Shown one piece after another: positions 9,978-51,344 of a stretch of DNA of 64,000 nucleotides (position 1 is the stretch's first letter; every line of letters starts with the position of its first letter). The DNA is from Thiohalomonas denitrificans (GTDB lineage: Bacteria > Pseudomonadota > Gammaproteobacteria > Thiohalomonadales > Thiohalomonadaceae). Location: NCBI GenBank assembly GCA_020725115.1, contig DYFR01000016.1:21471-85470 (forward strand), written 5' to 3'. The notes beneath the pieces are model-generated. The model searched no databases and was not told the DNA's origin. It saw nothing but the letters and a program-made list of their open reading frames with translations. Position numbers and translations under genes: made by a program.

Positions 9978-10010
9978 GTCGTGACTCCTCGTTATTAGTG
10001 ATAAGAGACA

Positions 10011-10201
10011 ACACGTCGCAGAGACGCAGAGGGCGCAGAGAACGCTCCCCGTATGTAACGGATGTGGTGCAGACTGTCCATATGCCGATGCAACAGCGCC
10101 GTTTATTGGGTGTCGGCGGGCAAATGCCCGTGCAACCACTCCGCCATGAATATGGTCGCCGATAGTGTCTTGACTCTGCGTCTCCGCGTCTCCGCGACAA
10201 A
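10011..10201. repeat. CGCAGAG-family inverted repeat, copy 1
   Basis: Left arm gtcgcagagacgcagagg (10015 onward) and right arm ctctgcgtctccgcgtct (10174 onward) are near-complementary and about 130 bp apart. The element lies between the divergent metY and DedA-type genes, so both promoters must lie inside or beside it. Confidence 0.8.
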
Positions 10202-10220
10202 TAGGTTTTAGAATCAACCC

Positions 10221-13409: not shown

Positions 13410-13426
13410 CGGATCCAAAACCCCAT

Positions 13427-13564
13427 GTCGCAGAGACGCAGAGACGCAGAGATAAACGATTCGCTCATACCCGTGGTCTCGAATGGCTGCGGGTTGACCG
13501 ACGGAACGCTCGCGCGATATTTAACCGTTATTAACATTCTCTGCGCCTCTGCGCCTCTGCGGCA
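13427..13564. repeat. CGCAGAG-family inverted repeat, copy 2 (overlaps mpl 3' end)
   Basis: Left arm gtcgcagagacgcagaga, right arm ctctgcgcctctgcgcctct, about 87 bp apart. The right arm encodes the last ten residues of Mpl (AAEAQRRREC) and the region immediately beyond gives its TAA stop. Confidence 0.85.
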
Positions 13565-14922
13565 GGTGTTGATTGTTCTAAGGCTGCCAGCAGCTTGGCA
13601 TGGATGCCGCCGAAACCGCCGTTGCTCATCACCAGCACGTGGTCGCCGGGGCGGGCCGCGGCGCGCACGGCGGCGACGATGGCATCGATATCAGCGTAGA
13701 CGATACCCCGCTCTCCGAGAGATGCGGTTGCGGCGCCCAGATCCCAACCCAGGTCGCTGGGATGATAGAGGAACACCAGGTCGGCGGCGGCCAGGGACGG
13801 CCCCAGGGTGTCGCGGTGCACGCCGAGGCGCATGGTGTTGGAGCGCGGCTCCAGCACCGCCAGGATGCGCGCCGCGCCGACCCGCTTGCGCAGGCCGGCC
13901 AGGGTGGTTTCGATGGCGGTGGGGTGATGGGCAAAGTCGTCGTACACCGCCACCTCGCCGGCCACGCCGCGCAGTTCCAGCCGGCGCCGCACGTTCTTGA
14001 ACTCACCCAGCGCCGCGCAGGCCTGCGCCGCCGGCACCCCGGCATGGCGCGCCGCGCCGATGGCGGCGAGGGCATTGCTGACGTTGTGCCGGCCGAGCAG
14101 CTCCCACTGCACCTCGCCCTGCACCATACCGTTCCAGGCCACATCAAACCGGCTGCCGTCCTCGGTGCGCAGCTTTGCACTCCAGCCGTCGCCATCGCCG
14201 AATTTTTCCACCGGCGTCCAGCAGCCCATCTTCAGTACCCGTGCCAGCGCCGCATCTTCTGCCGGCGCCAGGATCAGCCCCTGCCCCGGCACGGTACGCA
14301 CCAGATGATGGAACTGCCGCTCGATGGCGGCGAGGTCGGGAAAGATATCGGCGTGGTCGTATTCCAGGTTGTTGAGGATCGCCGTGCGCGGCCGGTAGTG
14401 CACGAACTTGGAGCGCTTGTCGAAGAAGGCGGTGTCGTATTCGTCCGCCTCCACCACGAAAAATGGCGTGTCGCCGGCGCGGGCGGAGAGACCGAAGTTG
14501 TGCGGCACGCCGCCGATGAGAAAGCCCGGCGCCATGCCGGCGTACTCGAGAATCCAGGCCAGCATGGCGGCGGTGGTGGTCTTGCCGTGGGTCCCGGCGA
14601 CGGCCAGCACCCACTTGTCACGCAGCACGTGCTCGGCCAGCCACTGCGGCCCGGAGGTGTAGGGGATGTTGCGGTTCAGCACGTGCTCCACCGCCGCATT
14701 GCCGCGCGACAGGGCATTGCCGATCACCACCATGTCGGTGTGGGCGGGAATGCCCGCCGGCGCATAGCCTTCAGTGAGGTCGATACCCGCCGCGGCGAGC
14801 TGTTCGCTCATGGGCGGGTAGACACCGGCGTCCTGGCCCGACACCGTATGGCCGGCGGCGCGCGCCAAAAGCGCAATGCCGCCCATGAAGGTGCCGCAGA
14901 TGCCGAGGATATGTATGTGCAT
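13531..14922 (-). CDS. mpl: UDP-MurNAc:L-Ala-gamma-D-Glu-meso-DAP ligase
   Basis: Peptidoglycan-recycling Mur ligase that attaches the salvaged tripeptide to UDP-N-acetylmuramate. The track ORF extends upstream into a repeat; the homologous start is MHIHILGICGTFMGGIALLAR at 14922 (463 residues). The ATP P-loop is AVAGTHGKTTTAAML; NNLEYDHADIF, LLGRHNVSNALAAI and YDDFAHHPTAIETTL are typical of the Mpl subfamily. Oddity: the final residues AAEAQRRREC are encoded by the arm of a dispersed repeat, so the original C-terminus has been replaced or extended. The catalytic core is unaffected. Confidence 0.95.
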   Translation of the reverse strand: MHIHILGICGTFMGGIALLARAAGHTVSGQDAGVYPPMSEQLAAAGIDLTEGYAPAGIPAHTDMVVIGNALSRGNAAVEHVLNRNIPYTSGPQWLAEHVLRDKWVLAVAGTHGKTTTAAMLAWILEYAGMAPGFLIGGVPHNFGLSARAGDTPFFVVEADEYDTAFFDKRSKFVHYRPRTAILNNLEYDHADIFPDLAAIERQFHHLVRTVPGQGLILAPAEDAALARVLKMGCWTPVEKFGDGDGWSAKLRTEDGSRFDVAWNGMVQGEVQWELLGRHNVSNALAAIGAARHAGVPAAQACAALGEFKNVRRRLELRGVAGEVAVYDDFAHHPTAIETTLAGLRKRVGAARILAVLEPRSNTMRLGVHRDTLGPSLAAADLVFLYHPSDLGWDLGAATASLGERGIVYADIDAIVAAVRAAARPGDHVLVMSNGGFGGIHAKLLAALEQSTPAAEAQRRREC

Positions 14923-14944
14923 GGAACTCCGCCTTGCTTTAATC

Positions 14945-15041
14945 AGATACAAGAGGAAAGAGGAAAGATACAAGGGAATTCAAAACGGCACGAGCGCAGC
15001 GAGTTCATCCCCTTGTATCTTGTCACTTGTATCTTGTATCT
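14945..15041. repeat. GATACAAG-family inverted repeat, copy 1
   Basis: Left arm agatacaagaggaaagagg, right arm cttgtatcttgtcacttg with a further ttgtatct; the centre contains gaattcaaaa and cacgagcgcagcgagttca, shared with the other copies. It sits between the mpl start and the 3' end of the next minus-strand gene. Confidence 0.85.
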
Positions 15042-15665: not shown

Positions 15666-16820
15666 ATGTCCGTACCGTATATCGACAATCCCACCGATCT
15701 CGCCACCTACTGTCGTGAACTGCGCACGCATGACTGGTTCGCCATCGACACCGAATTCATGCGCGAGAAGAGCTATTACCCGCAACTGTGCCTGATCCAG
15801 ATCGCCACCCCGGATGGTGCCGTGTGCATCGACCCCTTCGGCATCGACGACCTCGGCCCGCTGCTGGAACTGCTGTACGACCCGGCCATCCTCAAGGTAT
15901 TTCATGCGGCGCGGCAGGACCTGGAGATATTCCACGTCATGCGCGGCACGCCGCCCGCGCCGGTGTTCGACACCCAGCTTGCCGCCACCCTGCTCGGCCA
16001 CGGCGATCAAGTAGGCTACGGCGCGCTGGTGAAGGAGACCCTGGGCGTGGAACTGGAAAAGGCCCACAGCCGGGCCGACTGGAGCCTGCGCCCGCTCACC
16101 CCGGAACAACTGGAATACGCCGCCGACGATGTGCGCTATCTGGTGCAGGTGTATGAAAAGCAGCGCGCCGCGCTGGAGCAGAACGGCCGCCTGCCCTGGC
16201 TGGCGGAGGACTTCGCCGCACTGTCCGACCCGCGCACCTATGAAAATCCGCCGCAGGAGGCCTGGCGCCGCATCAAGGGCGTCAATTTCCTCAAGGGCGT
16301 ACAGCTCGCCGTGCTGCAACAGGTCGCCGCCTGGCGCGAACAGGTGGCCCAGGACTCCGATCGGCCGCGGCGCTGGGTGCTGAAGGACGAGGTGATGTTC
16401 GACATGGCCAAGCTGATGCCGGACAGCCTGGACAAGCTCGGCCGCATTCGTGGCCTGGAAAAGGGCACCGTGGAACGCAACGGCAAACGCCTGCTGGAGC
16501 TGATCCAGCAGGGCCGCAAGATGCCGAAGGAAGACTGGCCGCAACTGGAGACCACCGTACGCCTGGCGCCGGAACAGGAGGCGCTGGTCGACGCCATGAT
16601 GGCACTGGTGCGGCTGCGCGCCCAGCAACATCAGGTCAGCGTCCCCACCCTGGCGCCGCGGCGCGAGGTAGAGCGTTTACTTGGTGACGATCCCGAGGCC
16701 GCACTGCGCCACGGCTGGCGCGCGCAACTGGCGGGCCACGATCTGGAGCGGCTGCTGCGCGGCGAGCTGTTCCTGCACATACGACAGGGCCGCCTCGAAG
16801 CGGAAGAAAGCGGCATATGA
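15666..16820 (+). CDS. rnd: Ribonuclease D
   Basis: 3'-5' exoribonuclease for tRNA and small RNA maturation, 384 residues. DEDDy exonuclease motifs are all present: DTEFMRE, HAARQDLEIF, and YAADDVRYL with the Tyr variant. Two C-terminal HRDC-type domains follow (about residues 210-290, around RRWVLKDEVMFDMAKLMP, and about 295-375). The start ATG 15666 gives MSVPYIDNPTDLATYCREL; the track's longer ORF is an upstream extension. A CGCAGAG repeat begins 16 bp after the stop. Confidence 0.96.
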   Translation: MSVPYIDNPTDLATYCRELRTHDWFAIDTEFMREKSYYPQLCLIQIATPDGAVCIDPFGIDDLGPLLELLYDPAILKVFHAARQDLEIFHVMRGTPPAPVFDTQLAATLLGHGDQVGYGALVKETLGVELEKAHSRADWSLRPLTPEQLEYAADDVRYLVQVYEKQRAALEQNGRLPWLAEDFAALSDPRTYENPPQEAWRRIKGVNFLKGVQLAVLQQVAAWREQVAQDSDRPRRWVLKDEVMFDMAKLMPDSLDKLGRIRGLEKGTVERNGKRLLELIQQGRKMPKEDWPQLETTVRLAPEQEALVDAMMALVRLRAQQHQVSVPTLAPRREVERLLGDDPEAALRHGWRAQLAGHDLERLLRGELFLHIRQGRLEAEESGI

Positions 16821-16836
16821 ACGACGCAAACATCTG

Positions 16837-16900
16837 CCGCGGAGGCGCAGAGGCGCAGAGTTCCACTCATTTCATACTCTGCGTCTCCGCGTCTCTGCGC
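16837..16900. repeat. CGCAGAG-family inverted repeat, copy 3
   Basis: Left arm ccgcggaggcgcagaggc, right arm ctctgcgtctccgcgtctct, separated by 16 bp, between rnd and the cardiolipin synthase-like gene. Confidence 0.85.
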
Positions 16901-16933
16901 TGGTTTGTGATCTTTGCCCTCAGATAACCCACC

Positions 16934-18749: not shown

Positions 18750-18850
18750 CAAGATACAAGTTAGTGAACTCGCTGCGCTCGTACTGTTTCTGAATTCAAA
18801 CAATCGTGCGCGCAGCGCACTCCTCTACTTGTATCTTGCAACTTGTATCT
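18731..18850. repeat. GATACAAG-family inverted repeat, copy 3
   Basis: Left arm agatacaagatgcaagtg, right arm cttgtatcttgcaacttg, centre gtgaactcgctgcgctcg ... gaattcaaacaatcg ... cagcgcactc. Located between two convergent genes; the left arm carries the stop of the phosphodiesterase gene. Confidence 0.88.
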
Positions 18851-22205: not shown

Positions 22206-22883
22206 ATGCCTCACATTACGCCTCCCCGCGACGAAACCGAACTGCTGGCCCGCGCGCGACGGCTCGCCGGCCGCACTCTGGGCGAACTCGCTGCCGAACT
22301 GGGCGCAGCGGTACCGGCCGATCTGCGCCGCCACAAGGGCTGGGTGGGACAGCTCGTCGAACAGGCCCTCGGCGCCACCGCCAGCTCCCTTGCTGCCCCT
22401 GACTTTGAGGCCATCGGTGTGGAACTCAAGACCCTGCCGGTAGATGGGCGCGGCCTGCCGCGCGAATCCACCTATGTCTGTACCGTGCCGCTGGAGGCGG
22501 CGGGCGAGGATTGGGAACACAGCTGGCTGCGGCGCAAGCTGGCGCGGGTATTGTGGCTCCCGGTGCAGGCCGAGAAAGGCCTCGCACTGGCAGAGCGACG
22601 CATCGGCAGCGCCCTGTTGTGGAGTCCATCGCCGGAAGAGGAGGTGCTGCTGCGCCGCGACTGGGAGGAACTGACCGAACGCATCCTGCTCGGCGAGCTG
22701 GAGCACATCAGTGCGCGTCATGGCGAGGTGCTGCAGATCCGCCCCAAGGCTGCCGACAGCCGTGCCCTGCGCCATGCCATAGGCCTGGACGGCGAGCGCG
22801 TGCTCACCAACCCGCGCGGCTTCTATTTGCGTGCGGCATTTACCGCCGCCATCCTGCGCCGCCACTTCGTGCTGCCGGGCTGA
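22206..22883 (+). CDS. mutH: DNA mismatch repair endonuclease MutH
   Basis: Nicks the unmethylated strand at hemimethylated GATC during MutSL-directed repair. 225 residues; KGWVGQLVEQALGA and the catalytic DFEAIGVELKTLPVD (Asp, Glu, Lys of the restriction-enzyme-like site) are intact, as is GEVLQIRPKAADS. Its presence implies Dam methylation in the host. Oddity: the last 16 bases before the stop recur exactly 207 bp downstream, beyond a block of intergenic repeats. Confidence 0.96.
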   Translation: MPHITPPRDETELLARARRLAGRTLGELAAELGAAVPADLRRHKGWVGQLVEQALGATASSLAAPDFEAIGVELKTLPVDGRGLPRESTYVCTVPLEAAGEDWEHSWLRRKLARVLWLPVQAEKGLALAERRIGSALLWSPSPEEEVLLRRDWEELTERILLGELEHISARHGEVLQIRPKAADSRALRHAIGLDGERVLTNPRGFYLRAAFTAAILRRHFVLPG

Positions 22884-22939
22884 AAGAGGGGCTGCGTTGC
22901 AAGGAAAGAAGCGCCAAGGGGGCAGAAAACAAAACATCC

Positions 22940-23005
22940 AACGCAGAGACGCGGAGGCGCGGAGGCCACAGAGGGAACAGCTCAAAATCTCTGCGCCTCT
23001 GCGTT
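22940..23005. repeat. CGCAGAG-family inverted repeat, copy 4
   Basis: Left arm aacgcagagacgcggagg, right arm tctctgcgcctctgcgtt, close together, downstream of mutH. Confidence 0.85.
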
Positions 23006-23032
23006 GAGGGTTTTGAATCCTGCGGTTCGGGA

Positions 23033-23066
23033 CGTAGGGGGATAAGCGCAGCGCATCCACCCTACG
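23033..23066. repeat. Short palindrome around GGATAAGCGCAGCGCATCC
   Basis: cgtagggggataagcgcagc and gcatccaccctacg form an imperfect hairpin. A related palindrome occurs at 42460-42490 in the opposite sense, so this is a dispersed short repeat. Confidence 0.7.
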
Positions 23067-23127
23067 ATCTACTTCGTGCTGCCGGGGTAAATACTCCGCA
23101 ATCCTGTCGCGACGCAACAGCTGGAGT

Positions 23128-23499
23128 TCAGCCCACGCCGAGGTGCTGACCGTAGCGGGAGTAGAGTCGAGCATCCAGGTGACGGTTGTAAATGGAACGG
23201 CCGTCACCCTCAAAGTCGATAAACTCGGCACCAATGCGGAAACAGTGCTCACTGCCGTCATACACCGTATGCGCCACACGCACACGGGCAAATACCCTTA
23301 CATACTCATCGGTTTCGACATCAAGGATATTGAGGAATATGCGCAGCATATCGCCGGTATCGGCATTGTATTCACTGAGTAACTGCAAGCCGCCCAGTGA
23401 TATGTCATAGGTCCAGACATAATGCACGCTCTCATCTGAAAGCATGACTCCGACCTTGTGGCGAATTTTGATACGGGGGCTGGCGCGTCGTTCCTGCAT
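23128..23499 (-). CDS. PilZ-domain protein (putative c-di-GMP receptor)
   Basis: Single-domain PilZ protein of 123 residues. The c-di-GMP signature is complete: an Arg-rich start ERRASPRIKIRH (RxxxR) and DISLGGLQLL (D/NxSxxG) about 20 residues later. Likely binds cyclic di-GMP and signals to motility, adhesion or secretion partners, none of which is adjacent. It ends next to the repeat block that follows mutH. Confidence 0.9.
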   Translation of the reverse strand: MQERRASPRIKIRHKVGVMLSDESVHYVWTYDISLGGLQLLSEYNADTGDMLRIFLNILDVETDEYVRVFARVRVAHTVYDGSEHCFRIGAEFIDFEGDGRSIYNRHLDARLYSRYGQHLGVG

Positions 23500-28042: not shown

Positions 28043-28300
28043 ATGGCACGCATCAAGATTTACAGTACCGGCACCTGCCCCATCTGCGACAAGACCAAGA
28101 CCCTGCTCAACAAGTGGGGCATCGCCTACGAAGAGGCACGCATCGACCTCGATCGCAGCCTGCTGCAGGAATTTTCCCGTATCACCAGCGGTGCCCGCAC
28201 CGTGCCGCAAATCACCCTCGACGAACGCTGGATCGGCGGTTTCAACGAACTGACCGAGATGCACATGGAGGGTGAACTGGACGAACTGATGGAGGAGTAA
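28043..28300 (+). CDS. Glutaredoxin (Grx3-like)
   Basis: 85-residue dithiol glutaredoxin: KIYSTGTCPICDKTKTLLN has a CPIC active site, and TVPQITLDERWIGGFNEL is the glutathione-binding TVP/GG pair. A cytosolic thiol-disulfide reductant. Ile in place of the usual Tyr or Tyr/Phe in CPxC is uncommon. Start ATG 28043 is backed by GGAG 7 bp upstream. The longer track ORF begins at an unsupported site. Confidence 0.92.
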   Translation: MARIKIYSTGTCPICDKTKTLLNKWGIAYEEARIDLDRSLLQEFSRITSGARTVPQITLDERWIGGFNELTEMHMEGELDELMEE

Positions 28301-28504
28301 CCCTGCCCTTGTGCTGCGCTATGTCTTGTCCATCACCCGCGGCTTGCCCCGCCGCGCACCCTGCGGCCGGTTCTTCTCCTCCTTGCTGAAGGAAAATCGT
28401 CCGAACAGGACACAACCTTTCATGCCGGGGTCACACGCAGATCCCGGCACCTTGAGACAGGCACCGTTGTTGTCGTGTGGGCAAGCCCATCCGCCCATGC
28501 GCCA

Positions 28505-36735: not shown

Positions 36736-36765
36736 GTTTTCGGGCCCAGAAATTATCAATTTTCC

Positions 36766-36821
36766 AACACTCAACGCAGAGAAAACACCGTCATCAGCTC
36801 TGCGTCTCTGCGTTAGGTGTT
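36766..36821. repeat. CGCAGAG-family inverted repeat, copy 5
   Basis: Arms AACACTCAACGCAGAG and CTCTGCGTCTCTGCGTTAGG, 16 bp apart, between cspA's terminator and the rsmC 3' end. Confidence 0.85.
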
Positions 36822-36837
36822 GGGTTGAATCCCGGGT

Positions 36838-37860
36838 TCAGGGCATCAGCTGCGTCACGCGGAAACGGCCGTCGTCGGCCAGCGTGGTGATGCGGGCGTA
36901 ATGCCGCCGCGCCACCTTCTCGATCGGAAGAAACGCATTGGTGACGAACAGCGCCTGGCCACCTTGGGCTGTCAGGCGGCGCGCGGCGGCGACGAAACGT
37001 TCGGTGAGGTCGTACTCGACACCGAAGCCCTGATGGAAGGGCGGATTGCACAGCACCAGGTCAAACACCCCCTCGATGCCCGTGCCGCAGTCGGCGGCGC
37101 ACACCTCCCCCGCGACACCGTGGGCGGCAAAGTTGGCGCAGCAGGCCAGTACCGCGGCGGCATTGTTGTCGCTGGCCACCACCTGCTGCGGCTGCAGCTT
37201 CAGCCAGGCCTGCACCGACAGATAGCCATAACCGCAGCCGAGGTCGCACACCCGTTGCGGCGCACAATCCGGCAGATGCGCCACCAGCAATGCACTGCCC
37301 GCATCCACCTTGTCCCAGCCGTACAGCCCCGGCTTGGTGAGATAGCGCAGCGTGCCGTCCTCGATGACCGGGCGCAGCCGCGGGTAGTCGCGATCATCCA
37401 GTGCCGCGCCGACGGCAGCGCCGCGCTGCACCACCGCCAGATACTGATGGCCCATCTTCCTGAATTCGAGCGCACCGCCCAGCCGCTCCGCCGCATGCTT
37501 TGCATAGGTCTTGATGCCCTGCTGCTTGGCGCCGGACAGCAGCAGCCGGCCGCCGGGGGCGAGCCGCTCGGCGGCGGCGTTGATGACGTGGTGCACCACC
37601 GGCTTTTCCTTGGCGACGCGAAAGAAGATCGCCTCCAGGCTGCCGGCCGGCCAGGGCGCGAAATCGAAGTCGGAAAACTGCGCCGCCCAGCCGGCGGCGC
37701 GCATCTCATCGCTCACGTCGACGCGGTTGGACAGCACCGCCACCGCCGCATTGGGCGCCGGCATGCCGGCGCCGCCGTGCTCACCCAGCACCCACAGGGC
37801 GGGCGCCCGCTGGGCGTGGATCAGGGGCAGCAACAGCGCGAGGGCTCCGTCCTGATTCAT
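36838..37860 (-). CDS. rsmC: 16S rRNA guanine-N2 methyltransferase (RsmC/RlmG type)
   Basis: 340 residues with a degenerate N-terminal methyltransferase-like half and a catalytic C-terminal half (VCDLGCGYGYLSVQAW, DLVLCNPPFHQGFGVEY). NPPF is the signature of RsmC/RlmG, which methylate rRNA at N2 of guanine. TKPGLYGWDKVDAGSALLVAHL fits RsmC (16S G1207). It overlaps the end of rsuA by 4 bp, another 16S modification gene, supporting RsmC over RlmG. Confidence 0.88.
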   Translation of the reverse strand: MNQDGALALLLPLIHAQRAPALWVLGEHGGAGMPAPNAAVAVLSNRVDVSDEMRAAGWAAQFSDFDFAPWPAGSLEAIFFRVAKEKPVVHHVINAAAERLAPGGRLLLSGAKQQGIKTYAKHAAERLGGALEFRKMGHQYLAVVQRGAAVGAALDDRDYPRLRPVIEDGTLRYLTKPGLYGWDKVDAGSALLVAHLPDCAPQRVCDLGCGYGYLSVQAWLKLQPQQVVASDNNAAAVLACCANFAAHGVAGEVCAADCGTGIEGVFDLVLCNPPFHQGFGVEYDLTERFVAAARRLTAQGGQALFVTNAFLPIEKVARRHYARITTLADDGRFRVTQLMP

Positions 37861-41162: not shown

Positions 41163-41314
41163 GCTGACCGGCCCGCATTTCTCACCATCACGCGAAGCTC
41201 AAAGTGCCGAGGTGCCACTGTGATGGCAAGAAATGCGGACTCACCTATTGACAGCGCCACCGCTTTGCCGAAAATGCGCGACATTACAATCCCGATCCCA
41301 AACCGAGAGAGAAA

Positions 41315-46791: not shown

Positions 46792-47363
46792 TGACCACCG
46801 TGCCTGCACTGCTCTGTGCCGCTGAAACCAGCCAGCTGGTGGTCATCGACGTGCAGGCGCGGCTGGCGGCGGTGATGCCGCCGGCAGCGCGTGAACAGGT
46901 AATAAAAAATACCGGTATCCTGCTGCAGGCCGCACGCCTGTTGCAGCTGCCGGTGATTGCCACCGAACAGTATCCCAAGGGTCTCGGCAATACCGAGGCC
47001 ACCCTCGCACAGCATTTCCCCGAGGGACTCGACGTGGTATGCAAGACCTGCTTCGCCTCCAGCGGCGCCCCCGGATTCAATGCCAGTCTCGATGCCCACC
47101 AGGGCCGCCACCAGGTGATCCTCGCCGGCATGGAGGCCCATGTCTGCGTGCTGCAGACGGCCATGGAGCTCATCGGCCGCGGCTATCAGGTGTTCATCGT
47201 GGAGGATGCGGTCAGTTCGCGCGCCGAGGCCAACCGGCACAACGCCATCGCCCGTCTGCGCCAGGCCGGTGCCGTCATTACCAGCACCGAGTCGGTGCTG
47301 TTCGAGTGGCTGCGCGATGCCGGTCATCCGCAGTTCAAGGCCGTGTCGGCGTTGATCAAATAA
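46791..47363 (+). CDS. Isochorismatase-family cysteine hydrolase
   Basis: 190 residues. The triad candidates are Asp in VVIDVQARLA, Lys in DVVCKTCFASSG and Cys in GMEAHVCVLQTAMEL. The layout fits the YcaC/ISOC1-type group of the family, with unknown substrate. Its ATG overlaps the tolC TGA by one base, so it is translationally coupled to tolC. A 415-bp repeat-rich gap follows. Confidence 0.88.
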   Translation: MTTVPALLCAAETSQLVVIDVQARLAAVMPPAAREQVIKNTGILLQAARLLQLPVIATEQYPKGLGNTEATLAQHFPEGLDVVCKTCFASSGAPGFNASLDAHQGRHQVILAGMEAHVCVLQTAMELIGRGYQVFIVEDAVSSRAEANRHNAIARLRQAGAVITSTESVLFEWLRDAGHPQFKAVSALIK

Positions 47364-47377
47364 GCAGAGAATCATTC

Positions 47378-47486
47378 ACCGCAGAGAACGCAGAGAAAGG
47401 CACAGAACGTAATGCGTGCAGGGTGTGACGGGCAACGACGTTTGAGCAACAATCCTTATTCTGCGACCTCTGCGCCTCTGCGGTTA
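47378..47486. repeat. CGCAGAG-family inverted repeat, copy 6
   Basis: Left arm accgcagagaacgcagag, right arm cctctgcgcctctgcggt, 71 bp apart. Confidence 0.85.
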
Positions 47487-47626
47487 ACACAGACACATCG
47501 CTCCCACGCGGAGCGTGGGAACGATAAGATGTGGTGGGAGTCCGATTCATCGGGCGAAAGCGGCGCCGGAACGGCCGCCATCGCCCGGTAAACCGGGCTC
47601 CCACAACGGGGCGAGTAGTTACGGGG

Positions 47627-47734
47627 AAAGATACAAGAGGAGGTGTGCGTTGTGCGCACGGTTGTTTGAATTCAAAAAATCACGAGCGTAGCGAGTTCAT
47701 TCCCTTGTATCTTGTCACTTGCATCTTGTATCTC
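47627..47734. repeat. GATACAAG-family inverted repeat, copy 5
   Basis: Left arm aaagatacaagagg, right arm cttgtatcttgtcacttg then catcttgtatct; centre gttgtttgaattcaaaaa and cacgagcgtagcgagttca, like copies 1 and 3. Confidence 0.85.
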
Positions 47735-49269: not shown

Positions 49270-50570
49270 TCGACACTGCCCTCGCCCGCTACCGCCTGCT
49301 GTTCGCACTGCTCACGCCACTGTGGCTCGGCTATACGCTGTGGCAGGCGTTGCGCGAAAAATCATGGCGCTATCTGCGTGAGCGCTGCGGCTTTTATCGC
49401 GGCGAGGCTCCGCAGGAGTCCATCTGGCTGCACGCTGCCTCGGTGGGTGAACTCAACGCCGCCCTGCCACTCATCAACGCCCTGCGCACCCGGCGGCCGC
49501 AGCAACCATTGCTGGTCACCACCGCCACGGTGAGCAGCGCCCGCCTCGCTGCCCGACAGCTGCCCGCCGACGTGCCGCATGTATTTCTGCCGCTGGACTG
49601 GAGCGGCGCAGTGCGCCGTTTTCTCGATCAACACCAGCCGCGCTGCGCCCTGATCATGGAGACGGAGCTGTGGCCCAACCTGTTTGCCGCCTGTGAGCAG
49701 CGTGCCATCCCGCTGATCATCGTCAACGGCCGCCTGTCGGTGCGCACACGCAACGCCCCACGCTGGCTGTGTCGCCAGTACCGCTGCGCCCTCCAGCGCA
49801 CCACTGCCGTACTGGCCCGCTCCGAGGCAGATCGCGCCGGCTTCATCGCCCTGGGGGCGCCGGCGGAACGGGTACAGGTAGTGGGCAACATCAAGTTCAG
49901 CACCGATGTCCAGGCCGCCAAGGCGGTCGTTTCCCTGCCGCGCCCCTACCTGCTGGCCGCCTCCACCCGCGACGGCGAAGAGGCGCTGCTGCTGCGCGCC
50001 TGGCAGCACAGTGATCGCGGCGAACGCCTGCTGGTCATCGTGCCGCGTCATCCCCGGCGCCTGCCCGACATCCTGCGCGACCTGGCGCTGCCGCCGGAGC
50101 AGGTCGCCGTGCGCAGCCGCGGTGAGGAGGTCGGGGCACACACCCGCGTCTACCTCGCCGACACCTTCGGCGAACTCACCGGCTTCATGGCCGGCGCGGA
50201 ACTGGTATTCATGGGCGGCTCCCTGGTGCCGAAAGGCGGGCAGAATGTGCTGGAGGCCGCCCACCTGGGCAAGGCGCTGGTATTCGGCCCGCACATGGAC
50301 AATTTTGCCGACGAGGCGCGGCTGCTGCTGGAGAACGGTGCGGCACTGCAGGTGCAGGACACCGAGGCACTGGGGCAGGTCATCACGGAACTGCTGGCGC
50401 AGCCGGAACGCCTCGCCGCCCTGGGCAAGGCCGCACAGCAGCTGGTGGAACGGCGCCGCGACATGGCCACGCGCTACGCGGTGGCGCTGGAAGAGTGGTG
50501 CCCTCAGGGCGGGAGTGCGGCTACAAACATCGACACCCGGCGCAGAGACGCAGAGACGCAGAGCAGATAA
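49266..50570 (+). CDS. waaA: 3-deoxy-D-manno-octulosonic acid (Kdo) transferase
   Basis: Transfers Kdo to lipid IVA. 434 residues, N-terminal anchor (YRLLFALLTPLWLGYTLW), SIWLHAASVGELNAALPLINAL, METELWPNLF and GGSLVPKGGQNVLEAAHLGKALVFGPHM are typical. ATGA overlap with lpxL. Oddity: the last ten codons (RRRDAETQSR) and stop derive from a CGCAGAG repeat. Whether it transfers one or two Kdo is not visible, but kdkA next door suggests a single phosphorylated Kdo, as in Haemophilus. Confidence 0.95.
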   Translation: MIDTALARYRLLFALLTPLWLGYTLWQALREKSWRYLRERCGFYRGEAPQESIWLHAASVGELNAALPLINALRTRRPQQPLLVTTATVSSARLAARQLPADVPHVFLPLDWSGAVRRFLDQHQPRCALIMETELWPNLFAACEQRAIPLIIVNGRLSVRTRNAPRWLCRQYRCALQRTTAVLARSEADRAGFIALGAPAERVQVVGNIKFSTDVQAAKAVVSLPRPYLLAASTRDGEEALLLRAWQHSDRGERLLVIVPRHPRRLPDILRDLALPPEQVAVRSRGEEVGAHTRVYLADTFGELTGFMAGAELVFMGGSLVPKGGQNVLEAAHLGKALVFGPHMDNFADEARLLLENGAALQVQDTEALGQVITELLAQPERLAALGKAAQQLVERRRDMATRYAVALEEWCPQGGSAATNIDTRRRDAETQSR

Positions 50571-50604
50571 TGGATTTTCTCTGCGCCTCTGCGTCTCTGC
50601 GTCG
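50538..50604. repeat. CGCAGAG-family inverted repeat, copy 7 (overlaps waaA 3' end)
   Basis: Left arm cggcgcagagacgcagag, right arm tctctgcgcctctgcgtctc, 14 bp apart, between convergent waaA and kdkA. The left arm is translated as the WaaA C-terminus. Confidence 0.88.
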
Positions 50605-50624
50605 AGGATTGGACGTTCCTTGCC

Positions 50625-51344
50625 TCATTGGCTTTTGCCGTCACCGTACCCCGCCAGCAAGACCTGCCAGTCGGCATCGCTGAAGGCAATGTCCAGGCTT
50701 TCGTTGTAGAGCTTGCGCAGCGAGCGCAGCAACCGCGCCAGATTGCCGCGTTGCCAGTGCCCGGCCATGCGCAGGCGGCCCCGGTCGAAATCGATCAGGT
50801 ACACACCGGCGTCGGTGAGCAGTATGTTGTGGGCGTTGAGGTCGGCGTGATCGACACCCGCATCGTGGAAGCGGCGGATACACACACCGATGGCCCGCCA
50901 GCGCTCCACCGGCAGAGCGGCCTCCGCCAGCGCCTGCGCCAGGGAGCGGGCGGCAGGTATGCGCAGGGTGACGAGATCGGCGCGGTAAAACAGGCCATCG
51001 TGCTCCACCCGCGCCGCCACCGGACGCGGCACCGGCAGGCCACGCTGATACAACTCCGCCATCAGCCGCCACTCGCGCCAGGCACGGGTATTTTCCAGCC
51101 CGATCCACAGATAGCTGTCGCGCACCAGCCGCCCGGGCAGGCCGCCGCGCCGGTAATGACGCAAAACATATTCGTGGATGCCGTCGCCGACGAAGGCCGT
51201 CTCGCCGCGACCCTGCGCACTGCCCAGCAACTGGCCGCGCCGGCGCCAGGCAGCCGGCTCGAACAGTGCCGGCTCCGCGTGGATCGGCAGGTCCGCATCA
51301 TATAGGATGTGGCTCTTTCCGCTTTGGATTTGAATGGGTTGCAT
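50625..51344 (-). CDS. kdkA: 3-deoxy-D-manno-octulosonic acid kinase
   Basis: Phosphorylates the Kdo of lipid A-Kdo at the inner membrane face. 239 residues from ATG 51344 (MQPIQIQSGKSHILYDADL). RGQLLGSAQGRGETAFV is the glycine-rich N-lobe, DHADLNAHNILLTDAG the catalytic loop, YLIDFDRGRLR the metal site. The ATG overlaps, on the opposite strand, the start of the divergent heptosyltransferase gene. Convergent with waaA. Confidence 0.93.
   Translation of the reverse strand: MQPIQIQSGKSHILYDADLPIHAEPALFEPAAWRRRGQLLGSAQGRGETAFVGDGIHEYVLRHYRRGGLPGRLVRDSYLWIGLENTRAWREWRLMAELYQRGLPVPRPVAARVEHDGLFYRADLVTLRIPAARSLAQALAEAALPVERWRAIGVCIRRFHDAGVDHADLNAHNILLTDAGVYLIDFDRGRLRMAGHWQRGNLARLLRSLRKLYNESLDIAFSDADWQVLLAGYGDGKSQ

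Follow-up and report, generated by a model that had tools for sequence, protein, structure and literature searches.

The mutH end and its second copy

Within the window, by which we mean the whole 64-kb stretch of DNA analysed, a mutH gene and a convergent PilZ-domain gene enclose a gap that holds two repeat elements and a second copy of the mutH 3' end (Table 1). Four genomes of the same genus (G001-G004), with mutH orthologs at 73-88% identity, formed the comparison set for this junction. Collinearity with G001 and G004 extended over most of the window, and that with a G002 contig over a shorter part of it.

Table 1. Features of the mutH-PilZ junction, with positions in the window.
Feature	Position	Strand	Details
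mutH	22206..22883	+	225 aa; Pfam MutH, E 1.3e-27
Copy 1 of the mutH end	22864..22884	+	exact 16-mer 22864-22879; 21 nt at 90%; stop TGA
Inserted block	22880..23070		191 bp; missing from G001 and G004; G002 gap has a different hairpin
Hairpin A	22939..23006		dispersed palindromic repeat; arms of 8-base words; fold -42.6 kcal/mol, z -3.9
Element B, GTAG-tagged REP	23033..23066	+	tag 23034-23037; core 23040-23061; fold z -5.1
Copy 2 of the mutH end	23071..23091	+	exact 16-mer 23071-23086; stop TAA; tail GGGGTAAA as in G004 (GGGGTAA in G002)
PilZ-domain gene	23128..23499	-	convergent to mutH; Pfam PilZ, E 5.2e-10; collinear in G001, G002 and G004

The 16-mer ACTTCGTGCTGCCGGG occurs as two exact copies on the same strand, spaced 207 bp apart, and the extended match covers 21 nt, of which 19/21 are identical. 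The preliminary description, which had placed this 16-mer at the mutH end and again 207 bp downstream in the same sense, followed by another in-frame stop, was correct in these respects. Copy 1 is the true MutH end (TTC GTG CTG CCG GGC TGA, that is LPG-stop, with the stop at 22881-22883), and copy 2 reads TTC GTG CTG CCG GGG TAA with its stop at 23088-23090, so that the two differences (GGC TGA vs GGG TAA) both lie at synonymous sites. Copy 2 starts four bases beyond the REP palindrome. The duplicated segment probably reaches the mutH stop codon (21 nt), judged from the sequence, and a remnant of a replaced gene end therefore competes with a classical target-site duplication.

Among exact direct repeats with 40-600 bp spacing, ACTTCGTGCTGCCGGG was the longest in the window, for which third-order Markov shuffles gave a mean of 0.2 direct repeats of 16 or more. 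Its two copies were the sole occurrences in the whole 2.9-Mb genome, which ruled out the second copy as a member of a dispersed family.

The block between the copies was examined for its composition. It had been described as made of dispersed repeats, which held for hairpin A and the REP but not for the tested linker parts (22894-22919 and 23013-23037), for which no second genome copy was found at up to 3 mismatches. An origin of the whole block as a copy of some other locus was rejected, because no match spans it and the linkers have no second copy, and no Rfam family was found in the region at E up to 1. The 18-base arm pattern of hairpin A, with up to 2 mismatches, gave at least 328 genome matches vs 55 for the reversed control; since the arms overlap and pair, the elements are fewer than the arm matches, of the order of 100. 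Hairpin A resembles MITEs and short palindromic intergenic repeats in being short, palindromic, intergenic, multi-copy and non-coding, but its arms consist of repeated 8-base words and, unlike MITEs, its 37 other copies among the matches listed showed no target-site duplication above chance.

The core of element B gave 47 genome matches vs 0 for the reversed control, and most of the 30 copies listed carried the GTAG tag, with GCAG in the others. Element B is built like the GTAG REPs (PMC3733652) and REPINs of RAYT systems (PMC3733652, PMC2817692, PMC3116915): its tag lies beside a short palindrome, and its many copies are mostly intergenic, several of them in inverted pairs (e.g. L024, L136). 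Y1 transposase genes are present in the genome, but a cognate RAYT flanked by the same REP was not found, with no element B within 1.5 kb of the Y1 genes. Some REP families are described as lacking a nearby RAYT (PMC3733652), and the cognate gene may be missing from the assembly, which is 91% complete. Several copies of element B here differ from RAYT-type REPs in being flanked by direct duplications of gene ends.

The junction in relatives and repeats in other gaps

The exact 16-mer was single in G001, G002 and G004, and G003 had one diverged copy. G001 reads CACTTCGTGCTGCCGGGATGAGCACTCAGCCC with no insert; its mutH ends CACTTCGTGCTGCCGGGATGA, and the PilZ gene end lies 4 bases on. G004 has one copy, GGGGTAAA, followed by a 21-base gap, and G002 has one copy, GGGGTAA, with another hairpin family further on. 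What lies to the left of copy 1 (mutH) and to the right of copy 2 (GTAAA, then PilZ) is what borders the uninterrupted site. Thus G001, G002 and G004 provide the single-copy empty site expected for a transposon with a target-site duplication, and this single copy in relatives indicates that one mutH end is ancestral and that the block is derived in the present lineage. The earlier proposal of an insertion with target duplication, or of a duplication at the gene end, was supported by these relatives: the comparison of the mutH-PilZ gap that it had suggested yielded a single-copy site, and no repeat-free relative carried both copies. Since G001, G002 and G004 share all 16 of the exactly repeated bases, the identity of the two copies gives no date for the event.

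Homology between the G002 sequence after mutH and the sequence after copy 1 was not significant. A 16-nt match between the right side of hairpin A and the PilZ flank of G002 exceeded all shuffles, and is a hint only because another A tail reached the same score.

Repeats in other gaps of the genus were also observed. In window gaps near 9990-10208, 13410-13583, 14931-15010, 16776-16932, 36739-36842, 47363-47629 and 50501-50644, the hairpin family differs by species, with the word families CGCAGAG, ACAAGAT, TACGAG and others; hairpins seem to have been swapped repeatedly at fixed intergenic places across the genus. A 69-bp palindromic insert at 41174-41244 (GCATTTCTCACC... GCAAGAAATGC) is missing from G001 and has no flanking duplication. 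The G001 gaps opposite window positions 18760 and 36242 (also L250, L254) hold a repeat of ~200 bp with the ends GGAAGCTCTGAATAAG and its near-complement, which resembles a MITE and recurs in G001 at a number of gene ends. At 28299-28338 the window has 38 bp where G001 and G004 have a gene of ~800 bp between the same neighbours, whose product resembles an ATPase (GARGTGKSSL).

Duplications flanking other repeat copies

Two tests for flanking duplications were performed. In the strict test, we took, for 38 A elements among the matches listed, the longest exact repeat shared by the flanks within 120 bp. The flanking repeats were 5-8 bases, equal to those of mismatched flanks, save at mutH. Hairpin A as the maker of 16-bp duplications was therefore ruled out, with 37/38 of these listed copies at chance level. 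A duplication of fixed length was not found at other element copies, being absent from those A copies and ranging from 14 to about 150 bp at REPs.

The permissive test used local alignment of the 400-bp flanks with hairpin words masked, and scored sites that reached 14. In the present genome 5/42 REP blocks did so, with 0.75 expected from mismatched flanks, and in G004 and G002 together 2/~27 did (0.36 expected), giving 7 vs 1.1 expected when pooled (Poisson P 1.6e-4). None of the 49 hairpin sites without a nearby REP reached this score (0/30 for A and 0/19 for the ACAAGAT-word family). The comparison of 7/69 REP blocks with 0/49 hairpin-only sites gave a Fisher P of 0.02, or 0.06 minus two weaker cases. 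Matches at loci of G019, a genome from another genus of the family, were left out of the count because they are ordered REP arrays; these loci (L243, L245) carry tandem REP variants (GATAAGCGAAGCGC or GATAAGCGGAGCGC) with repeated flanks. The results suggested that the association of REPs with flanking duplications looks real in the examined genomes, on few cases and post hoc. Empty sites were sought for further REPs, and in three gaps the relatives carried other hairpins, with no clean junction readable.

Individual loci differed in the length and layout of the repeated segment. In the present genome, one gap is bordered by genes that Pfam assigned as a chemoreceptor (MCP) and a GGDEF-EAL gene (L127, L252). 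A segment of ~150 bp in it, running from the end of the first gene through hairpin A to the end of the convergent one, lies on both sides of a REP pair; the orthologous gap of G004 has one copy, in which hairpin A has the same right flank, and no REP. At the gene end of a polysaccharide deacetylase (L131), 14 bp recur past a REP, with junctions that do not match a simple target duplication. About 108 bp are repeated around a REP at L219 in G004, and at L024 a 74-bp hairpin is repeated around a REP pair, its loop being present only there among the loci examined. The match at L023 (36 nt at 86%) may reflect a further dispersed repeat instead of a local duplication.

The exonuclease III-like gene of G004 (L218, L247; Pfam Exo_endo_phos) showed the order gene end and hairpin, REP, second gene end and hairpin. 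Between these ends 12/51 positions differ, 10 of the 12 in third codon position, and each end reads as an intact tail of the protein, LERPSDHAPVIAEFQR and LERPSDHTPVMAEFRR. The copy taken as left-over is followed by AGGAAAGCAGCGGACAGGATG, the 21 nt after its stop being identical to the single copy of G002, and the last 33 nt of the working copy equal those of G001 except the final base. On this pattern the resident allele seems to survive in the left-over end, and the working end looks as if it had arrived with the insert. Such a different allele in the left-over copy points to a one-sided recombination that overwrote the gene end.

Origin of the duplicated gene end

With about even confidence, we propose that a mosaic block of hairpin A and a GTAG REP entered the single ancestral mutH-PilZ junction through a one-sided join and duplicated the mutH end in doing so. 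We infer that the insert and the duplication came from one event. In this reading the incoming DNA end would have borne hairpin A and the REP together with a mutH 3' end. It would have paired with mutH by homology on the left, and its right end, at the REP, would have been joined without homology just inside the old mutH end. The old end would then have been left behind as copy 2, with copy 1 as the working end, and the REP would probably mark the broken DNA end. The scheme would correspond to homology-facilitated illegitimate recombination, in which one homologous and one non-homologous end would overwrite the gene end and leave the old one; this process is known from marked-DNA transfer experiments (e.g. 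PMC3240628), and here, in distinction from it, a REP stands at the presumed non-homologous end.

A one-sided join would lead to a match that spans the stop codon with only synonymous differences, to varying lengths, and to the allele difference at the G004 exonuclease gene. The single mutH end without insert in relatives, the excess of flanking duplications at REP blocks and the MCP gap also speak for this proposal. The tail of copy 2, shared with G004 and G002, counts for a left-over gene end, and the G004 exonuclease locus gives indirect support to homology-facilitated illegitimate recombination. Against the one-sided join we count that no donor strain was found, that no homology switch inside mutH was visible in sliding identity, and that the right-hand junction showed no diagnostic sequence. 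The post hoc nature of the REP association also counts against it, as does the deacetylase locus L131, which is not a clean fit.

A classical insertion, with staggered nicks 16-21 bp apart at the mutH end, the block inserted and the gaps filled in to give a target-site duplication, has a real but clearly smaller chance of being correct. The outer flanks of the two copies (left of copy 1, right of copy 2) are those of the uninterrupted site, the same layout recurs in the MCP gap at about 150 bp, and a staggered-cut duplication accounts for these two loci equally well as the one-sided join does. However, the duplication lengths are spread from 14 to about 150 bp, the other listed A copies have no duplication, the G004 exonuclease ends are different alleles, and IS200/IS605-type enzymes, the proposed REP movers, are described as leaving no larger target duplications (PMC2817692).

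Template switching at hairpins could also have duplicated the gene end locally in tandem, the repeats being already there or placed between the units and part of one unit being lost later. This appears improbable for mutH, where the gene end alone is repeated and not hairpin A or the REP. L219 in G004 does read as a tandem unit, both copies of which contain the start of the REP, and for it, perhaps for others, such a duplication is possible. REPIN clusters with repeated flanks are described in P. fluorescens SBW25, where every unit of the tandem clusters has its own REPIN (PMC3116915). An assembly artefact, in which contigs overlapping at a repeat were left unmerged, is very improbable: hairpin A and the REP are multi-copy and a related locus has a run of N, but the block itself has no N, gene order is conserved at both flanks, the copy tails differ as those of a doubled overlap would not, and single-copy linkers anchor the block.

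The mutH-PilZ site exemplifies how repeats turn over where convergent genes end, and what merits further work is the connection between REPs and duplicated gene ends. In the portion of the literature covered, we found no account of a single REP lying between duplicate gene 3' ends, and the novelty of this arrangement is provisional. That REPs in this genus move or recombine in a way that leaves a second copy of the neighbouring gene 3' end, of variable length (14 to about 150 bp), is a tentative generalization that we regard as rather doubtful. If true, it would mean that gene ends are rewritten by REP insertions, with the replaced alleles still legible as fossils, in contrast with the clean insertion expected of IS200/IS605-type enzymes. 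By its scar, a second gene end directly beyond the REP, an insertion or exchange could be recognized and dated in existing genomes, and such scars could be compared with the behaviour of RAYT enzymes in the test tube.
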